Shown here one piece after another: positions 10,110 through 23,602 of a stretch of DNA of 23,602 nt (position 1 is its first letter; each line of letters begins with the position of its first letter). The DNA is from a virus, in IMG/VR virus record IMGVR_UViG_3300017748_000141, positions 1-23,602 of that record. One strand, 5' to 3'. The position numbers were made by a program, and so were the translations under genes. The notes under the pieces are model-generated. The model was not told the DNA's origin and ran no database searches. It saw only the letters and a list, made by a program, of their open reading frames with translations.

Positions 10110-10261
10110 TTACTTCTCCGTTTAGGTTTTAAATGTAAAAACTCTCGTATGTGTAGCTTCCTACCACGAAAGAAAACTATTAAGTTTATTGTTGTATTAA
10201 TAGAGATGGCAATGAGTAACCACCACTGCCACCATAATATTTCATTTGTTGATTCTACCAT
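10106..10261 (-). CDS. 51-aa single-pass membrane protein
   Basis: This short gene fills what would otherwise be a 151-base gap. It starts at ATG 10261, which shares its A with the TAA of the ribonucleotide reductase gene (TAATG), and it ends with TGA overlapping the next ATG (ATGA). The protein has a short acidic N-terminus (MVESTNEIL), a Trp-rich hydrophobic segment (WWQWWLLIAISINTTINLIV, residues 10-29), and a strongly basic C-terminus (HLKPKRRSK). This is the layout of a small single-pass inner-membrane protein with the tail in the cytoplasm. A lysis (pinholin-like) or superinfection role is possible, but nothing in the sequence decides it. The coupled overlaps at both ends and the unbroken frame are the main evidence that it is real. 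Confidence 0.65.
   Translation of the reverse strand: MVESTNEILWWQWWLLIAISINTTINLIVFFRGRKLHIREFLHLKPKRRSK
10137..10172 (-). terminator. Candidate intrinsic terminator or attenuator inside the small membrane-protein gene
   Basis: Read on the - strand, CTTTCGT (10172-10166) can pair with ACGAGAG (10148-10142) with one G-T wobble. Inside it, GTAG (10164-10161) pairs with CTAC (10156-10153) around a GAAG loop, leaving a small asymmetric internal loop. Five T residues follow immediately (10141-10137). This resembles a weak rho-independent terminator. It lies within the coding part of the 51-aa gene, so ribosomes translating that gene would disrupt it. It could lower expression of the three genes downstream (9076-10109). 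Confidence 0.35.
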
Positions 10262-12192
10262 TAACTAGCTTCTATGTCAACCATTTCACATGCATCTGCT
10301 GTACAAGCTAACTCTCTGCCACCTGTTGTGGTGTCTTCTTTCTCATAGTCTGCTAACTTAGACCAATCAATTGCTGTAGGCATTTCCTTGTAGGCTCTCT
10401 CATACTCTTCACCTACTATATCTTGATAAGGTGCTTGTGCATAAGTATGGTCACTAAAAGGTAAGAAAGATATACCTGATACTTCATCAAAGTTTTTGTA
10501 TACCCATGCTCCTACTTCCATCCACTCATCTTCTTTAACAGAGATAGTAACAGAAGGCTTGTGCTCACACCAATGTCTCTGATATAATAACCAAAAGTCT
10601 AATTGCTGTATAGCTGTCATTTCTGTTCTAGTCATTGCACCTGATGGTGATTTCATAGGAAAACTAAATACGGTTGTACTATCAGGCTTCATAACACATG
10701 GCTCACTAGGTATGCCACTATCTTGCATAAACTTTGTTAATGGGTCTTTGTTATCGCCACGTACAGTTCTAATGTAATAATCATTATGTCTAGCATGAAT
10801 ACCTGAAGCACTATCAACTAATTGACTAACTGTACCACTAGGTTTGACACAAGTTATAGCAGTTGACTGTGGTATGCCTAAATCTTTAGCCATCTTCTTA
10901 TTAGTTTCTACTGCTACATGTCTTAGTTGCTCCAACACATCTCCTAATTCATAGTAGGTATTATTTAATACTGGGCAATCAAGGATACCAGTTAGGGAAA
11001 CTCCTAATAGTCTTTCTTCCTCTGTATTATCTTTCCATACCTTACGTAAATATTTAAAGTCTGTAAGTGTAGATTGGAATGTACCAAGTATAGTAGCTAT
11101 TCTAACCTTTTCTTTTAATGTATCTACAGTATCTGTAACACGTGCTACTACTTCAGTTAAGTTACAAAACTGATATGGTCTAAGTATAATCTCTGAACAA
11201 GGATTACAACCAAAGTAATGGTCAGCACTACGTCTACCATTCTCTAATGCTTTTACTTTAGCTGCTTGTCTATTAAATATACCACGTTCTCCTGACTTAG
11301 ATTCATATAAAGATGTCCACTCTCGCATGAATGTACCCATCTCAGGCTTACCTTTAAATGCCACAGAGTTATTGGCTAATGCTCTTTGACCTTCATTCTC
11401 CCACCATTGACCTGACTTGGCATGTCTCATTTGGTCATCACCTAAGTTAGACAATGAGATAAGAGCAGAACGTCTTACTCCACCTACAACTACAACTTCC
11501 CCTATCTTACACATTAAATCGTGACACTCAATAGGAAATAGTCTTCTGCCTTTAGCACCTTGAAACTTAGATATACAAAATCTAAATAACTCTTCTAATG
11601 GTGCAGGTCCTGATGCTCTACCACCAAATGTTTTTAGTCTTGCACCTGCAGGTCTTACTTGCGATGTATCCCATGTAGGTACTTGTCCTACATAGAGCAT
11701 GGCAATGAGTTCTCTCAAAGCTTTTGCCCATCCGGGTCTACTATCTGCGACATGTATGACCGTAGTGCTATCTTCAAAATGCTCATTAACGATAGGTAAC
11801 TTGTCTACGTTTTCTCTTTCTACAGAGAAACCAACACCTGTTCCACACATAAGTATATACATACATTCATCAAAGCTACGAGGACTATCTACAGGTATAT
11901 AGCTACAGTTATAACCACCTACATGACATCTATCTAATGCAGGTCCTGATGTCATTAAGGCTCTCATACTTGGCATAACACCTAAGTTCATTATCTGTGT
12001 AGATAGTTTTTCTTTTAAGGCTTTAGTTATAGTATAGTTATAATTCTTCTTTAAATGATTTTCCATATAATCAAAATATCTATCGACTGTCTCACCCCAA
12101 TTCTCTCTTCTTTGGTCATCTTCTCTCCACCTTGCATAGCGAGAGAGTGCTATAAAGTTCTGATAGTCTGTTGGTAGGTAGTTGCTTAACAT
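10261..12192 (-). CDS. nrdJ: Ribonucleotide reductase, class II (adenosylcobalamin-dependent), monomeric type
   Basis: This 643-aa enzyme reduces ribonucleoside triphosphates to deoxyribonucleotides for phage DNA synthesis, using a thiyl radical made from coenzyme B12. Compared with the Lactobacillus leichmannii enzyme, the active-site cysteine and acid are in NPCSEI (C332, E334). The redox pair would be C96 (GGYNCS) and C343 (QFCNLTE), and the C-terminal shuttle pair is C630/C635 (CTADAC). All five cysteines are present, so it looks functional, though about 100 residues shorter than that homologue. No class I iron ligands or class III glycine-radical end were seen, supporting class II. ATG at 12192 has GGAG six bases upstream and directly follows the previous stop (TAAATG). 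Confidence 0.93.
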   Translation of the reverse strand: MLSNYLPTDYQNFIALSRYARWREDDQRRENWGETVDRYFDYMENHLKKNYNYTITKALKEKLSTQIMNLGVMPSMRALMTSGPALDRCHVGGYNCSYIPVDSPRSFDECMYILMCGTGVGFSVERENVDKLPIVNEHFEDSTTVIHVADSRPGWAKALRELIAMLYVGQVPTWDTSQVRPAGARLKTFGGRASGPAPLEELFRFCISKFQGAKGRRLFPIECHDLMCKIGEVVVVGGVRRSALISLSNLGDDQMRHAKSGQWWENEGQRALANNSVAFKGKPEMGTFMREWTSLYESKSGERGIFNRQAAKVKALENGRRSADHYFGCNPCSEIILRPYQFCNLTEVVARVTDTVDTLKEKVRIATILGTFQSTLTDFKYLRKVWKDNTEEERLLGVSLTGILDCPVLNNTYYELGDVLEQLRHVAVETNKKMAKDLGIPQSTAITCVKPSGTVSQLVDSASGIHARHNDYYIRTVRGDNKDPLTKFMQDSGIPSEPCVMKPDSTTVFSFPMKSPSGAMTRTEMTAIQQLDFWLLYQRHWCEHKPSVTISVKEDEWMEVGAWVYKNFDEVSGISFLPFSDHTYAQAPYQDIVGEEYERAYKEMPTAIDWSKLADYEKEDTTTGGRELACTADACEMVDIEAS

Positions 12193-12624: not shown

Positions 12625-12984
12625 TTAGCACTTATCAGACTTTCCAAAAGTTACATTGATAACATTATCTGCATAAGTTTTTTTTATCTCTTTATCTTTA
12701 TGGTCATCTTTATGTTCTTTGTCAAATACATTTACTACATAATCATTTATCTTATCTCTAAATGTAGGCTCAATCTCCATAAAGTTTAATGTAGAGCAGA
12801 GCATCTTGCATATATGTTCTACTTGATAATAATCATCATCATCTAATGGATTATCTAAATTAGGCATAATAGCTAATTCAATACCACCATTCCATTTACC
12901 CTTACTATTTAGATGAGGATTTACCTTGATTATAAAATCTTCTGGTAACACAGTCTTACTAGTAGTTCGTGAGTCTTTTGCCAT
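12625..12984 (-). CDS. Hypothetical protein between endonuclease I and DUF3310
   Basis: This 119-aa protein has a mixed composition. An N-terminal stretch with strand-like segments (FIIKVNPHLN; KWNGGIELAIM) is followed by an acidic loop (NPLDDDDYY), a helix (VEHICKMLCSTLNFM), a Lys/Asp/His-rich region (DKEHKDDHKDKEIKK) and a C-terminal strand (NVINVTFG). No known family or catalytic motif was recognised. The ATG at 12984 has GGAG nine bases upstream and lies inside the end of the endonuclease gene, so co-translation is likely. A role in DNA metabolism is suggested only by position. Confidence 0.6.
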   Translation of the reverse strand: MAKDSRTTSKTVLPEDFIIKVNPHLNSKGKWNGGIELAIMPNLDNPLDDDDYYQVEHICKMLCSTLNFMEIEPTFRDKINDYVVNVFDKEHKDDHKDKEIKKTYADNVINVTFGKSDKC

Positions 12985-13444
12985 ACTTTGTTTCTCCTTT
13001 TAACTTTCTTCCTATAAACTTTATTCTTTTAGGGTGTTCATCTTTACCTTTTTCTTTTAACCAATCTTCTGGTATTATTCTATCATAATATCTAAAGCCA
13101 TATTTAATACACCATTGTGCATATGTTGACTTTGCTCCCTTACTTAATCTAGAACGACTATTAGTAAATACAAATCTAATATCTAGAGTAGGATGTTGTT
13201 TTTTTATAGCTAAATGTTTTCTTCTATCTGCTGCTAAAAATCTACCTTTAGTTTCTATGATAATTCCGTTGTACAATATAAAGTCAGGAGTATAACTGCG
13301 ATAGGCTAAATCTTCCCACTCTATTTTAATACTTTCATAAGAGTAATCACATTTATTTTTCTTTAGATATAAAGATAGTTTATATTCTAAACCACTTCTA
13401 TATCCATACTTCCTAGCTTGTTTACTTACTTGATATAACTGCAC
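12959..13444 (-). CDS. Endonuclease I, Holliday-junction resolvase (T7 gp3 type)
   Basis: This 161-aa protein matches phage endonuclease I, which resolves four-way junctions and helps break down host DNA. The catalytic set of T7 gp3 (E20, D55, E65, K67) is seen here as E20 (RSGLEYKL), D54 (YTPDF), E64 and K66 (IIIETKGRF). The spacing is almost identical, and the length is close to the 149-residue T7 enzyme with a longer basic tail (KFIGRKLKGETKYGKR). In T7 the protein acts as an intertwined dimer. The start is GTG at 13444, directly after the upstream TAA. It sits with the SSB and Cas4-like nuclease genes, forming a recombination and packaging-resolution group. Confidence 0.92.
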   Translation of the reverse strand: MQLYQVSKQARKYGYRSGLEYKLSLYLKKNKCDYSYESIKIEWEDLAYRSYTPDFILYNGIIIETKGRFLAADRRKHLAIKKQHPTLDIRFVFTNSRSRLSKGAKSTYAQWCIKYGFRYYDRIIPEDWLKEKGKDEHPKRIKFIGRKLKGETKYGKRLTNY

Positions 13445-15248: not shown

Positions 15249-17261
15249 TCATGCCACATCTTTTGTGTCAAGCCAATTGTCACCTATTTTTGCTTCTAAT
15301 AGTAACGGTACATTTAAATCAATATGAAACTTACTCTCAATCAATTGTTTTAACTCATTATTTATTTCTTTTATCAAATATATTACTTGATTTATTTCTT
15401 CAGGATGTACATCAACTACTACAGAATCATGCACACTATTCACTATACAAGACTTATAAGTTTTAAACTTGTCTTCCATATGCATTAAAACTAATGGCAC
15501 TATATCAGCAGTAGCAAATGATTGTACAGGATAATTCTTTATCTGCGTAAAGTTTGTAACACCACCATTAGTTAATCGTCTAATATCCGGGAACGCAAAC
15601 TCTCTGCCTGAAGGTGTAGTAATCATACCAGTATTCATAGCTTCTGAAGCCAATCTGGTGTGCCATGATTTAATTCCTTTGTATTTTTCTGTAAAGTGCT
15701 CGTAGTATTTTGCTTCGGCTTGTGTTCTACCAAATCCTGTTGCTCCGTAGAGGGGTGCAAAGGTGTGTGCTTTCGCATCTTGACGAGTAGTCGGTTGACC
15801 CGCATCTGTAATAACTTTAGACGTATACGAGTGAACATCAAAACCAGTAGTGACTTCTTCAATAGCAACTCCATCTTGTGACAAGTAAGCAGCAACTCTA
15901 AACTCTAGTTGTGCAAAGTCAGCTTCTAAAACTTTACCACCTTTCCATCGTGATATAAATACTTTCTTAACAGGGAATGTACCACCTCTAGGCATGTTCT
16001 GCATATTAGGGTCAGCACCACTAAACCTTCCAGTAGAAGTTCTATGTTGTAATAATCTAACATGTAACTTACCATCAGGCTTCATATAAGTATTAATGCC
16101 TTGCACAAAGGAAGAGAGGTATGTATCTAATGCTGATAATCTTTGTATGTCATGTAAGAAACTATATGCTGTGTCAGAATCACTTCGTTTAGTAACGTGC
16201 TGTAAAACTTCTAACATCTTTTTATTCACACTAAAGCCATTAGCACTAATCCATTTTGCATTTGTTGGATTAAATTTAAGACCTGCTATTTCTCTAGTAG
16301 GAGCAAAAATGTAGCCAAGGCTATTGCAAGTAGCACATTTGGGTAACTTAGCGTAAAGAGTTCCATCCTTCTTAACCTTTCTTATTGTTCCTGTTCCATT
16401 ACATGCTTTACACATAACTGCCACGGTCTTGTAAACAATATCAGAATTTTCTTTTACTTTATGTTTAAATTCATCCCTACTCATGTAAGGAGCAAAGTTA
16501 TTCATCCAAGTTGTTTTGTCTTTTGGTTTTCTACTATATATAATCCATGACATTTGTTCAGGACTATTAAGATTGATTGGTGTATCACCCATAAGCTGAT
16601 GTACTTGCCTAGTCAATCTCTCTTCTATCATAGTCTTTTCTTTTTCAAACTCTTCTCTAACTTCATTTAACTTGTCTACATCAACAGTAAATCCAGTTTG
16701 ATATATTCTAGCTAGTGTTAGTGCAACACGATTAGTTAATAAGACAGTATCCATTAAACCTGAATACTCTACTGTATTTAACTTTTTATATAAGGCATCA
16801 GATAATTCTTGAGTAGCTTTTAAGTCAGCCGAAAGATAATCAGATAACTCTTGTTTAGGTATCTCATCTATAGGTACTTTATTTTTAAAGTATTCTTTCA
16901 TAGTGTCTTGTTTCTTAGTTGCTAACTCATATCTGTTTGCACAAGCTTCTAATGATAGAGGTTCTTTTAATCCACGTTGAAGAATGTATTCCCCTAACAT
17001 GGTATCAAAGATAGGACCATCATAATTTAAGTTACATTCCCATAGCCACATTAAATCATGTACTATGTTATGCCCTATAAGAATAGTTGCTTGGTCAAGT
17101 AACTCTTGTACACCTGTAAAGTCATCTCTAAATAAATGCTCTTCACCATTATCTGTTAGACAACCTACCATAACAAGCTTGTTGTCAGTCTCAAATGGGT
17201 CAAGATGTAACTTGCCATCTCTATGTGTTACAGTATTCTCTACATCAAGAGTCAGCTTCAT
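15249..17261 (-). CDS. DNA polymerase, family A, with 3'-5' exonuclease and a DnaJ-like zinc-finger insert
   Basis: This 670-aa replicative polymerase has intact proofreading motifs: Exo I LDVENT (D6, E8), Exo II GHNIVHD (N65, D69), Exo III YLSAD (Y142, D146). Polymerase motif A is DFAQLEFR (D448, E453), motif B RQDAKAHTFAPLYG (R493, K497, F501, Y505), motif C VHDS (H611, D612). F501 matches E. coli Pol I position 762; motif C has Ser where Pol I has Glu. Between the thumb motif NLNSPEQMSW (230-239) and the palm, at 284-312, lie two CxxC pairs of DnaJ type. An unusual central DnaJ-like domain has been reported for the HMO-2011 polymerase. The ATG overlaps the helicase stop (ATGA). Confidence 0.95.
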   Translation of the reverse strand: MKLTLDVENTVTHRDGKLHLDPFETDNKLVMVGCLTDNGEEHLFRDDFTGVQELLDQATILIGHNIVHDLMWLWECNLNYDGPIFDTMLGEYILQRGLKEPLSLEACANRYELATKKQDTMKEYFKNKVPIDEIPKQELSDYLSADLKATQELSDALYKKLNTVEYSGLMDTVLLTNRVALTLARIYQTGFTVDVDKLNEVREEFEKEKTMIEERLTRQVHQLMGDTPINLNSPEQMSWIIYSRKPKDKTTWMNNFAPYMSRDEFKHKVKENSDIVYKTVAVMCKACNGTGTIRKVKKDGTLYAKLPKCATCNSLGYIFAPTREIAGLKFNPTNAKWISANGFSVNKKMLEVLQHVTKRSDSDTAYSFLHDIQRLSALDTYLSSFVQGINTYMKPDGKLHVRLLQHRTSTGRFSGADPNMQNMPRGGTFPVKKVFISRWKGGKVLEADFAQLEFRVAAYLSQDGVAIEEVTTGFDVHSYTSKVITDAGQPTTRQDAKAHTFAPLYGATGFGRTQAEAKYYEHFTEKYKGIKSWHTRLASEAMNTGMITTPSGREFAFPDIRRLTNGGVTNFTQIKNYPVQSFATADIVPLVLMHMEDKFKTYKSCIVNSVHDSVVVDVHPEEINQVIYLIKEINNELKQLIESKFHIDLNVPLLLEAKIGDNWLDTKDVA
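16326..16412 (-). other. DnaJ-type zinc-finger insert of the polymerase (residues 284-312)
   Basis: The segment reads CKACNGTGT, then 16 further residues, then KCATCNSLGY, giving C284, C287, C309 and C312. The CxxCxGxG form of the first pair is the signature of the DnaJ cysteine-rich domain. Two pairs would bind one zinc ion. It lies after the thumb-tip motif, close to where T7 polymerase carries its thioredoxin-binding loop. Confidence 0.8.
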
Positions 17262-18481
17262 GCTGTATACCTCGCAGTTTTATAATCAAGATTACAAGTA
17301 ACATTACCATGCCAACCTGTCAATTTATTTTTTACAACATTGAGATGCCTTTCAGGACCTTCTTCTTCTTGACCTTCTATTGGTGGATTCTTAGCAATCA
17401 ATACCATCAAGTCTGCTTCAGCAGCTTTACCAGTCCTACTACCTTCCATCATAGATTGATTAAGTATAACTTTACCTTCTGCTTCAGCAGATAGTTGAGA
17501 CATATAAAACATAGCACAGTTATGAGACTTAGCTATCTGCCTAGCATATATTGCATTAGCCTTGAGTGCTTCATCGGGTCTAGCAAATCCTTGAGACCTA
17601 GCAAACTTATCACCCATGTCTAGTACAACTATGTCAGGCTTGTATGACTTACATACACTCTCTACCCAAGCCATATCACGATTAGATGCATCTTTGATAT
17701 CTATATGTTTTCGTACTGGACTGTACAACTCTTGTGCTCTCTGTGGATTCTCTTTCACTTGATGCATTGTCATACCTGTCGCTGCAGTTAGATATCTTGC
17801 TCCCACTCTATGAGGACCTTCTTCGTTGCACAGTATAATACATCTAGCACCTTGATGTGCAAAGCCACCGGGAGATGCAATCAAACTAGCATGAAAGGAT
17901 GTCTTGCCTGTATTAGGTCTAGCACCTACTTCAATTAGATGCCCAGCATTCACACCTTCAACTACTCTAGTCAAACTAGGAATGCCAAAGTTCCAACTAG
18001 CTTCTAAATCATTCTTGGATAGCAAAGCATCAATGCTTATGTCTTCCCATTGTATATTTAGATTAGGAGTAAAGTCATCACCATACTGCTCCAAAATATT
18101 ACGAAGAGGTTCAAGTGTAGATTGAGAACCATTGACGTAATCAAAGCCAAGATTAGCAATGTCTTCACCAACAACTTGCTGAAATAGTTTAGATAAAACT
18201 TCTTGTGCAACATCTTCTCCCATTGGTTGTTCTCGTTTGATGCCGTTGAACAAAGATGAGTATGCTTGTTTTTGTGCAGTAGTCATTGATGGATTGCCTG
18301 ACATAAACAATGCTTCAATCTCATCAGGTGTTACTGTTCTTTCGTATGTAGTCATTGCACTATCAAGTGCTTGTTTAATCTTTCTTACATCTTTGCTGAA
18401 TAATCTGTCTGGACATTTAGCACCTCTATGCTCATCATAGAATGTTTTGTCCATCAGACTTCGTATTAGGGATAGTTCCAT
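17258..18481 (-). CDS. Replicative DNA helicase, DnaB/T7 gp4 helicase-like (SF4)
   Basis: This 407-aa ATPase should form a ring that unwinds DNA at the phage fork. Residues 1-140 form a helical N-terminal domain. The RecA-like core starts with FGIPSLTRVVEGVNAGHL. Walker A is GARPNTGKT (186-194), the catalytic Glu region is LCNEEGP (217-223), and Walker B is IVVLDMGDK (D288). A QLSAEAEG segment and KNKLTGWHG near the C-terminus match the later SF4 motifs. Unlike T7 gp4, the primase is a separate gene just upstream, and the helicase ribosome site (AAGGAG) lies in the last primase codons. It overlaps the polymerase gene by ATGA, so primase, helicase and polymerase are probably produced together. 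Confidence 0.9.
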   Translation of the reverse strand: MELSLIRSLMDKTFYDEHRGAKCPDRLFSKDVRKIKQALDSAMTTYERTVTPDEIEALFMSGNPSMTTAQKQAYSSLFNGIKREQPMGEDVAQEVLSKLFQQVVGEDIANLGFDYVNGSQSTLEPLRNILEQYGDDFTPNLNIQWEDISIDALLSKNDLEASWNFGIPSLTRVVEGVNAGHLIEVGARPNTGKTSFHASLIASPGGFAHQGARCIILCNEEGPHRVGARYLTAATGMTMHQVKENPQRAQELYSPVRKHIDIKDASNRDMAWVESVCKSYKPDIVVLDMGDKFARSQGFARPDEALKANAIYARQIAKSHNCAMFYMSQLSAEAEGKVILNQSMMEGSRTGKAAEADLMVLIAKNPPIEGQEEEGPERHLNVVKNKLTGWHGNVTCNLDYKTARYTA

Positions 18482-18484
18482 GTC

Positions 18485-19255
18485 TTACTCCTTTGGGGTT
18501 AGGAAATATAAATTGTTTAAGTCTTCTTCGTTTCTATACTTCAAATCATCTTTTAGTCTAAGTACTTTTACTTCTTTAACGTAGTTGCGTAATTCTTTTG
18601 CAAACTGCATTATCTTATCTAAGGCGTCAGGGTCTAAGGCAATAATTGCTGTTGAGAACTGTGATAGATATTGCTTGTGTGATTCCAATAATGATGTTCC
18701 TAGCACAGCTATCCCCTTCCGTGTGTCAGAAGCAACCACAGCTGCACTAACACAATCCTCAACAACAATAGCAGTTGTACCATGTCCTTGAGAATAAGGC
18801 AAGTTGTTTTTTCCATATCGTTTCCATTTAGGTTTACTCTTACCTAATGAACGACCTGCACCATCAACAATCTTATTGTCATGTACAATAGGAAACACTG
18901 CTCTGTTCTCTTTAACGTCATAGTACAAACTTAATGTGTTAGCAGATAGACCCCACTTATCACACCACTCAGTAATTGCCTTACGATTACCATGTGGAAC
19001 AACATGTTCCGGGAACTCAAAGATTGTATTATCATCTTCTATCTGCTTACTCATAGCAGTGCGAATATCATCTACAGTGAGAGTAACACGAGAATTGCCA
19101 GATAAACTACAAGATATCTTATAGCAATTCCACATTACTGAACCCATATTATTGGTCACTGTAAATGTATTATAACTTTTACAGTTAGGACAATCTAATC
19201 TTCTAGACTCTCCTACACTTAACTGTAAATCATTTATATAATTGTATATATTCAC
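18485..19255 (-). CDS. DNA primase with N-terminal zinc finger and TOPRIM domain (T7 gp4 primase-like)
   Basis: This 256-aa protein would make RNA primers. A zinc finger is formed by C22 and C25 (CPNC) and C44 and C49 (WNCYKISC). A TOPRIM domain follows, with AIVVEDCVSAAVVA (E166) and AIIALDPDALDK (D208, D210) as metal-binding residues. The length fits the primase half of T7 gp4 without a helicase. The start is GTG at 19255 with no clear ribosome site; no in-frame ATG precedes the zinc finger, so GTG is kept. A tandem 13-bp repeat covers the start codon. It follows the integrase by 31 AT-rich bases and precedes the helicase by three. Specificity for primer sites cannot be read. Confidence 0.87.
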   Translation of the reverse strand: MNIYNYINDLQLSVGESRRLDCPNCKSYNTFTVTNNMGSVMWNCYKISCSLSGNSRVTLTVDDIRTAMSKQIEDDNTIFEFPEHVVPHGNRKAITEWCDKWGLSANTLSLYYDVKENRAVFPIVHDNKIVDGAGRSLGKSKPKWKRYGKNNLPYSQGHGTTAIVVEDCVSAAVVASDTRKGIAVLGTSLLESHKQYLSQFSTAIIALDPDALDKIMQFAKELRNYVKEVKVLRLKDDLKYRNEEDLNNLYFLTPKE

Positions 19256-23134: not shown

Positions 23135-23385
23135 TACACTAACTCCTTCCATTTTATTTTAAATATCGTGTTCCAAGTTTCTTGAATCTCATCATCAAGA
23201 TTACCACCATGAATAAATTCTAGTTGGTCTTTGACATATTGCATACGACATTGGTCAAGTGTCCACTTATCTGTAGCTTCTTCATCAATGAAAAGTATAG
23301 GTTGAATTTCTTTCTTACTCATACCTACTGCTTGATAATATAGGATATTAACCAATGCTTTTTTATATCGTGTCTCGTTTGTCAT
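23134..23385 (-). CDS. Small hypothetical early protein
   Basis: This 83-aa protein is mainly helical. A helix (TRYKKALVNILYYQAVGMS) is followed by KKEIQPILFIDEEATDKWTL, then a charged helix (DQCRMQYVKDQLEFIHGG) and an acidic end (LDDEIQETWNTIFKIKW). No family or motif was recognised. The ATG at 23385 has AAGGAG five bases upstream and overlaps the methyltransferase stop (ATGA), so it is expressed with the methyltransferase. Nothing links it to methylation beyond position. Confidence 0.6.
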   Translation of the reverse strand: MTNETRYKKALVNILYYQAVGMSKKEIQPILFIDEEATDKWTLDQCRMQYVKDQLEFIHGGNLDDEIQETWNTIFKIKWKELV

Positions 23386-23602
23386 ACTTGCTCCTTTGTT
23401 TCATTGTGCATTTTATGCCATTGATTATAAGCATCATCATAAGCTTCTATTACTTTGATACTATTAAGTATATGAGCAATCACATCTACTGTCCAACCAT
23501 TACCAATCATCTTGTATCTCTGTGTCTTAGATACATGATTAGTATAATTATCTGGCATAGTCTGTAATCTCTCACACTCTAATGGTGTCAACTTTCTCCA
23601 CA
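23382..23602 (-). CDS. C5 cytosine-specific DNA methyltransferase, C-terminal part (5' end outside window)
   Basis: The frame enters from the right edge and ends at TGA 23382. The 73 visible residues hold the last conserved motifs of 5-methylcytosine methyltransferases: WRKLTPLECERLQTMPDNYT (motif IX region) and TQRYKMIGNGWTVDVIAHIL (motif X, part of the S-adenosylmethionine site). The catalytic PC motif and the target-recognition region lie outside the window, so activity and specificity cannot be judged. Phages use such enzymes to mark their own DNA against host restriction. A TTG at 23591 could be mistaken for a start, but the conserved motif continues upstream to the edge, so the gene is truncated by the window rather than short. 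Confidence 0.9.
   Translation of the reverse strand, partial: WRKLTPLECERLQTMPDNYTNHVSKTQRYKMIGNGWTVDVIAHILNSIKVIEAYDDAYNQWHKMHNETKEQV

Follow-up and report, generated by a model that had tools for sequence, protein, structure and literature searches.

A four-cysteine insert in the thumb of an HMO-2011-type phage DNA polymerase: a probable zinc ribbon around a conserved basic hairpin

What is the four-cysteine insert in the DNA polymerase of HMO-2011-type phages, and what might it contribute to the enzyme? An earlier note on this locus mentioned a DnaJ-like domain already reported for HMO-2011, and the literature agrees: the published descriptions credit the insert with two CXXCXGXG motifs and call it a 'partial DnaJ central domain' (PMC6918029, PMC9038755). 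So far, it has been discussed only under that description. The window analysed here, a viral record of 23,602 bases taken over its full length, follows the gene order of HMO-2011, with integrase, primase, helicase, polymerase, exonuclease-like protein, and endonuclease I. The genes around the insert are the following.

15249..17261, minus strand: family A DNA polymerase of the HMO-2011 type, 670 aa, with 3'-5' exonuclease and polymerase parts (Pfam and identity to HMO-2011 DNAP)
17258..18481, minus strand: DnaB-like replicative helicase, overlapping the polymerase start (Pfam DnaB_C, 1.7e-11)
18485..19255, minus strand: TOPRIM primase-like protein (weak Toprim_2 match, 0.017; phrog_6444 DNA primase, 0.0025), in the position of the annotated DNA primase of HMO-2011

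The polymerase belongs to family A and carries a proofreading exonuclease, as both Pfam domains exceed their cut-offs (DNA_pol_A, 9.4e-55 and 186.5 bits against 34.3; DNA_pol_A_exo1, 4.6e-6 and 27.0 bits against 23.6). Its identity to the HMO-2011 DNAP reaches 64.2% over 100% of the query. This full-length homology, together with a four-cysteine insert between the exonuclease and polymerase parts, places it in the HMO-2011-type lineage. Judged by sequence, the window is thus an HMO-2011-type marine phage. Other genes in the window encode a B12-dependent (class II) ribonucleotide reductase (10261-12192) and, at the record end, the C-terminal part of a C-5 cytosine methylase (23382-23591; profile positions 278-323 of 324 only).

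The polymerase contains cysteines at residues 34, 76, 107, 284, 287, 309, 312, and 605. C284, C287, C309, and C312 map to 16412-16326 on the minus strand, exactly where the earlier note had put them, and the first pair reads CKACNGTG, the CxxCxGxG form it described. The insert can be divided into three segments.

16389..16412, minus strand: putative zinc knuckle 1, CKACNGTG, residues 284-291, with invariant Cys and Gly
16338..16388, minus strand: basic hairpin TIRKVKKDGTLYAKLPK, residues 292-308, with near-invariant K295, K/R297, K298, and G300; aligns with the hairpin of fingerless relatives
16314..16337, minus strand: putative zinc knuckle 2, CATCNSLG, residues 309-316, with C309 in 185/187 and C312 invariant in the HMO-type set

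Conservation was assessed in HMO-type polymerases gathered from IMG/VR and isolates, a set that reaches down to about 35% identity and is biased toward close relatives. Counts refer to 187 distinct polymerases, that is, 189 rows minus the outgroup L009 and the window's second copy, L210. Of the 187, 185 retain the complete set of four cysteines, so the pattern is not a chance arrangement. The two exceptions (L083 and L089) are related polymerases with Asp in place of C309, which gives a naturally occurring Cys3-Asp version of the presumed zinc site. With sequence weighting, C284, C287, G289, G291, and C312 are invariant, G316 is essentially fixed like G289 and G291, and cysteines 34, 76, 107, and 605 are conserved less than those of the finger. 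Besides the zinc ligands, the best-conserved part is the basic hairpin enclosed by the knuckles, [IV]-R-K-x-[KR]-K-[DN]-G, where K295 is Lys in 97% of sequences and Arg in the rest, position 297 is Lys or Arg in 100%, K298 is kept in 96%, and G300 in 100%. The span between the knuckles holds on average 5.9 K/R versus 0.9 D/E. The non-ligand knuckle positions 285, 286, 288, 310, 311, and 315 are among the most variable of the region. Pattern and conservation fit a four-ligand zinc ribbon or knuckle, and the insert probably binds zinc.

The published motif rule (PMC9038755), which asks for two literal CXXCXGXG motifs, is passed by CKACNGTG and failed by CATCNSLG, where S314 takes the place of the first glycine. 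Since 58 of the 187 homologues fail as well and 129 pass, the lineage is wider than the literal rule allows. No significant match to the insert was found outside HMO-type phages by tblastn against 50,697 phage records. Within them, the finger is common to phages of SAR116, SAR11, and Roseobacter hosts. A prophage or host assignment from bacterial genomes was considered and rejected, as it involved five MAG contigs only, probably misbinned phage. The same phage contigs (L232/L233 and L235/L236) occur in two unrelated MAGs, Flavobacteriales and Neomarinimicrobiota, which makes misbinning likely.

The position of the insert within the thumb was taken from an AF2 model built from 41 window-type sequences (mean pLDDT 87.5; insert 82-94), combined with motif alignments. 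All elements lie on the minus strand and rest on the AF2 model, except where noted.

16590..16679, minus strand: thumb helix H, residues 195-224
16563..16574, minus strand: FN motif N230-L-N-S233, equivalent to Klenow FNLSS and T7 FNPSS (invariant N230/S233; phmmer to Klenow; hhalign)
16536..16562, minus strand: thumb helix H1, residues 234-242
16434..16523, minus strand: spacer with short helices, residues 247-276
16413..16433, minus strand: supporting beta-hairpin, first strand, residues 277-283
16287..16313, minus strand: supporting beta-hairpin, second strand, residues 317-325
16182..16223, minus strand: thumb helix H2, residues 347-360

From this order, the insert falls in the H1-H2 connection. 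The two strands flank the cysteine region, so that the insert is predicted to cap a beta-hairpin that follows the FN motif and lies between H1 and H2. The finger is therefore a thumb insert in the predicted structure, as had been proposed, and it does lie downstream of NLNSPEQMSW (residues 230-239), about 45 residues past the FN motif. The spacer 247-276 is the least conserved part (mean pairwise identity 0.43). A Foldseek search with the whole model returned Bacillus Pol I-DNA complexes on top, with T7 absent from the best 50, and was uninformative on the insert.

A further proposal was that the finger sits at about the site of the T7 thioredoxin-binding loop and may replace it. That domain of T7 gp5 is taken here to span about residues 258-333. 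The positions of E319, E330, and the 272-290 loop are consistent with such limits (PMC5984650). As FNPSS occupies residues 334-338, the T7 domain ends just before it, in the H-H1 loop; the finger lies after the FN motif, in the neighbouring H1-H2 loop of the predicted structure. It does not replace the T7 loop, because HMO-type polymerases have almost nothing in H-H1, a few residues only (about 'MGDTPI'), and a T7-type insertion between H and H1 is thus missing. The window nonetheless encodes a T7-type endonuclease I (12959-13444; Pfam 8.8e-47).

Profile alignment is ambiguous when the families are left intact, since a single short motif then lies between two large loops. Direct hhalign and MAFFT comparisons aligned the T7 domain with the finger and paired FNPSS with FNPTN (330-334). 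This match was rejected, since N230 and S233 are invariant while 331 and 334 vary, and since a loop-free alignment to NLNSPEQ scores better: once both loops are omitted, FNPSSRDHIQ aligns to INLNSPEQMS with a score of 123.6, versus 113.3 for full profiles. Sequence and model together suggest that the T7 thioredoxin loop and the HMO finger loop are neighbours in the thumb and not equivalents.

Comparison with relatives bears on the origin of the insert. Cysteine pairs are absent at the finger site in the nearest outside polymerases, those of ICP2, MEP402, QDWS535, H4/4, VpV262, and StenR_269. Alignment of the HMO-type profile to that of the fingerless polymerases (E 3e-56) matched IRKVKKDGTLYAK to a basic hairpin, FKTGxRxGExKYK, and left both knuckles largely in gaps on either side. 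A fingerless protein of the Methylophilales-phage type was also modelled with AF2. Overall quality is poor (mean pLDDT 56.6), and the best region of this model is the hairpin (about 71-84), with strands 243-255/265-276 and a basic turn between H1 and H2. More distant polymerases (L321-L323) carry a similar turn, GKYKNGKDKYK. The simplest history suggested by these alignments and models is the addition of knuckles around a pre-existing basic hairpin; the insert is less likely to derive from a captured DnaJ domain.

Several of these relatives differ in gene organization. The polymerase is split into exonuclease-thumb and palm-fingers genes in ICP2 Haiti, MEP402, QDWS535, and Manatee podovirus (L005, L007, L008, and L010), and an HNH or hypothetical gene lies at the junction in some ICP2 and Vibrio phage records. 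StenR_269 has an annotated thioredoxin-domain protein directly upstream of its polymerase (L006:2526-2792). A scan with Alcaligenes QDWS535 as query returned nothing, and one with ICP2 returned two loci only.

On balance, we lean toward reading the insert as a single-zinc CxxCxGxG-type ribbon that staples a more ancient thumb hairpin in contact with DNA and would improve DNA grip or processivity independently of any host factor. The ribbon would be grafted onto the H1-H2 loop, where its two zinc knuckles would clamp the base of the strongly basic hairpin, itself carried on a two-stranded beta stalk. The zinc site would keep the lysine-rich hairpin rigid on the backbone of the new duplex leaving the active site, and the rigid hairpin would add grip and processivity with no host protein needed. 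The position of the insert, in the sequence and in a predicted fold, its conservation, and the homologous hairpin are observed; zinc binding, DNA contact, and processivity are what we infer from these data. Direct DNA contact is favoured because the basic hairpin is conserved and is also present in fingerless relatives.

The thumb of related enzymes offers a rationale. In apPol, H, H1, and H2 form a groove that holds the DNA backbone (PMC12529929), and in simulations of T7 DNA polymerase, S338 (of FNPSS) and K355 contact the backbone (PMC5984650). By its position in the sequence, K355 belongs to the H1-H2 loop. A lysine-rich hairpin extended from this loop would, according to the model, be well placed to grip the product duplex. 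In Klenow, deletion of the thumb tip (590-613), a segment that by sequence covers the same H1-H2 loop, is said to lower DNA affinity and processivity. A role of the finger in processivity is plausible, and its occurrence across phages of SAR116, SAR11, and Roseobacter hosts fits a host-independent function.

Other functions can be weighed against the same evidence. A captured DnaJ piece might recruit host DnaK or act as a chaperone or thiol reductase. Pfam DnaJ_CXXCXGXG (PF00684) does match weakly, in the window as in 41/41 homologues, and zinc centre II of DnaJ, a protein with four CxxC pairs, two zinc ions, and a J-domain, is reported as necessary for the interaction with DnaK (PMC4428491). 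The window polymerase, however, reaches 18.5 bits where the cut-off is 32.7 (profile positions 16-54 of 65), has two CxxC pairs rather than four, and gave no Pfam match to a J-domain. The resemblance suggested in the earlier note thus holds for one DnaJ zinc centre and does not extend to a DnaJ domain; 'DnaJ-like' is a description of the motif only. Among PDB sequences, the best match was the lambda Q antiterminator (E 0.56, non-significant), slightly ahead of the DnaJ homologue MAS5/Ydj1 (8.7), and the hairpin inside the finger is native to phage polymerases. A DnaJ-derived role is consequently very improbable.

Docking of a replisome partner deserves more weight and is possible, if doubtful. 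Here the finger would bind the phage helicase, the acidic tails of SSB or primase, or host thioredoxin or glutaredoxin, as the T7 domain does. The thumb inserts of T7 and human mitochondrial DNAP serve as binding sites for processivity factors, and that of T7 binds the SSB tail in addition to thioredoxin (PMC7699545), which keeps protein docking in contention. Acidic protein tails are a further possible target of basic hairpins (PMC7699545), including the conserved one here, which counts against DNA grip, and glutaredoxin genes are reported in HMO-type phages (PMC9038755). Nevertheless, the loop is not that of the T7 domain, the knuckles vary on their non-ligand surface while conservation centres on the lysines, and the ORFs scanned in the window, a partial record, included no gene for thioredoxin or glutaredoxin. 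The sequence and model comparisons made here yielded no evidence that thioredoxin or DnaK docks on the finger. An unlikely alternative is a mainly structural staple, in which zinc would firm up a long loop of the thumb and hardly affect DNA binding or partners. In its favour, small folds are often stabilised by zinc knuckles, conservation is low in the neighbouring spacer 247-276, and one ligand may be Asp, a substitution that, in its two polymerases, also speaks against a zinc-stapled grip. Yet such a staple leaves the near-invariant K295, K/R297, K298, and G300 between the knuckles unexplained. Because of this conserved, positively charged hairpin, a built-in DNA grip is more likely than either a remnant of a chaperone or a docking site for a host factor.

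The four-cysteine domain itself was known; its H1-H2 placement and the argument on its origin appear to be new within the literature searched, of which coverage was partial. This analysis corrects the loop assignment and adds the basic hairpin, with its conservation and its homologous counterpart in fingerless relatives; a vague chaperone analogy thereby becomes a specific, testable idea. As a tentative proposal, the zinc-stapled H1-H2 hairpin may represent a self-contained processivity element that arose when knuckles were added to an older DNA-binding hairpin. In some virome datasets from the ocean, HMO-2011-type enzymes account for up to 19.7% of the family A polymerases (PMC9038755). If the proposal is true, one of the ocean's commonest phage polymerase groups would have a solution to processivity unlike the thioredoxin of T7.

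Among known systems, the polymerases of HMO-2011, CRP-1/2/3, and HTVC033P (PMC6918029, PMC9038755) share gene order, enzyme, and four-cysteine insert with the window, which differs in its second knuckle, CATCNSLG instead of a literal CXXCXGXG. Fingerless phage polymerases (Methylophilales MEP402, Vibrio ICP2, Alteromonas H4/4, and Alcaligenes QDWS535) possess a homologous exonuclease-thumb with a basic beta-hairpin in H1-H2; they lack the cysteine pairs there, and several are split into two genes. The T7 gp5 domain is likewise a basic thumb insert of a phage family A polymerase with DNA-contacting lysines, although it occupies the H-H1 loop before FNPSS and lacks comparable zinc knuckles. The cysteine-rich domain of DnaJ (PF00684) resembles the insert in its CxxCxGxG-type knuckles around a hairpin, whereas the insert has one predicted zinc site instead of two and no J-domain. 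Finally, the zinc ribbon of lambda Q presents a similar CxxCxGTG ... CxxCxGxGY pattern, in a non-significant match, but belongs to a transcription factor and has a different hairpin.
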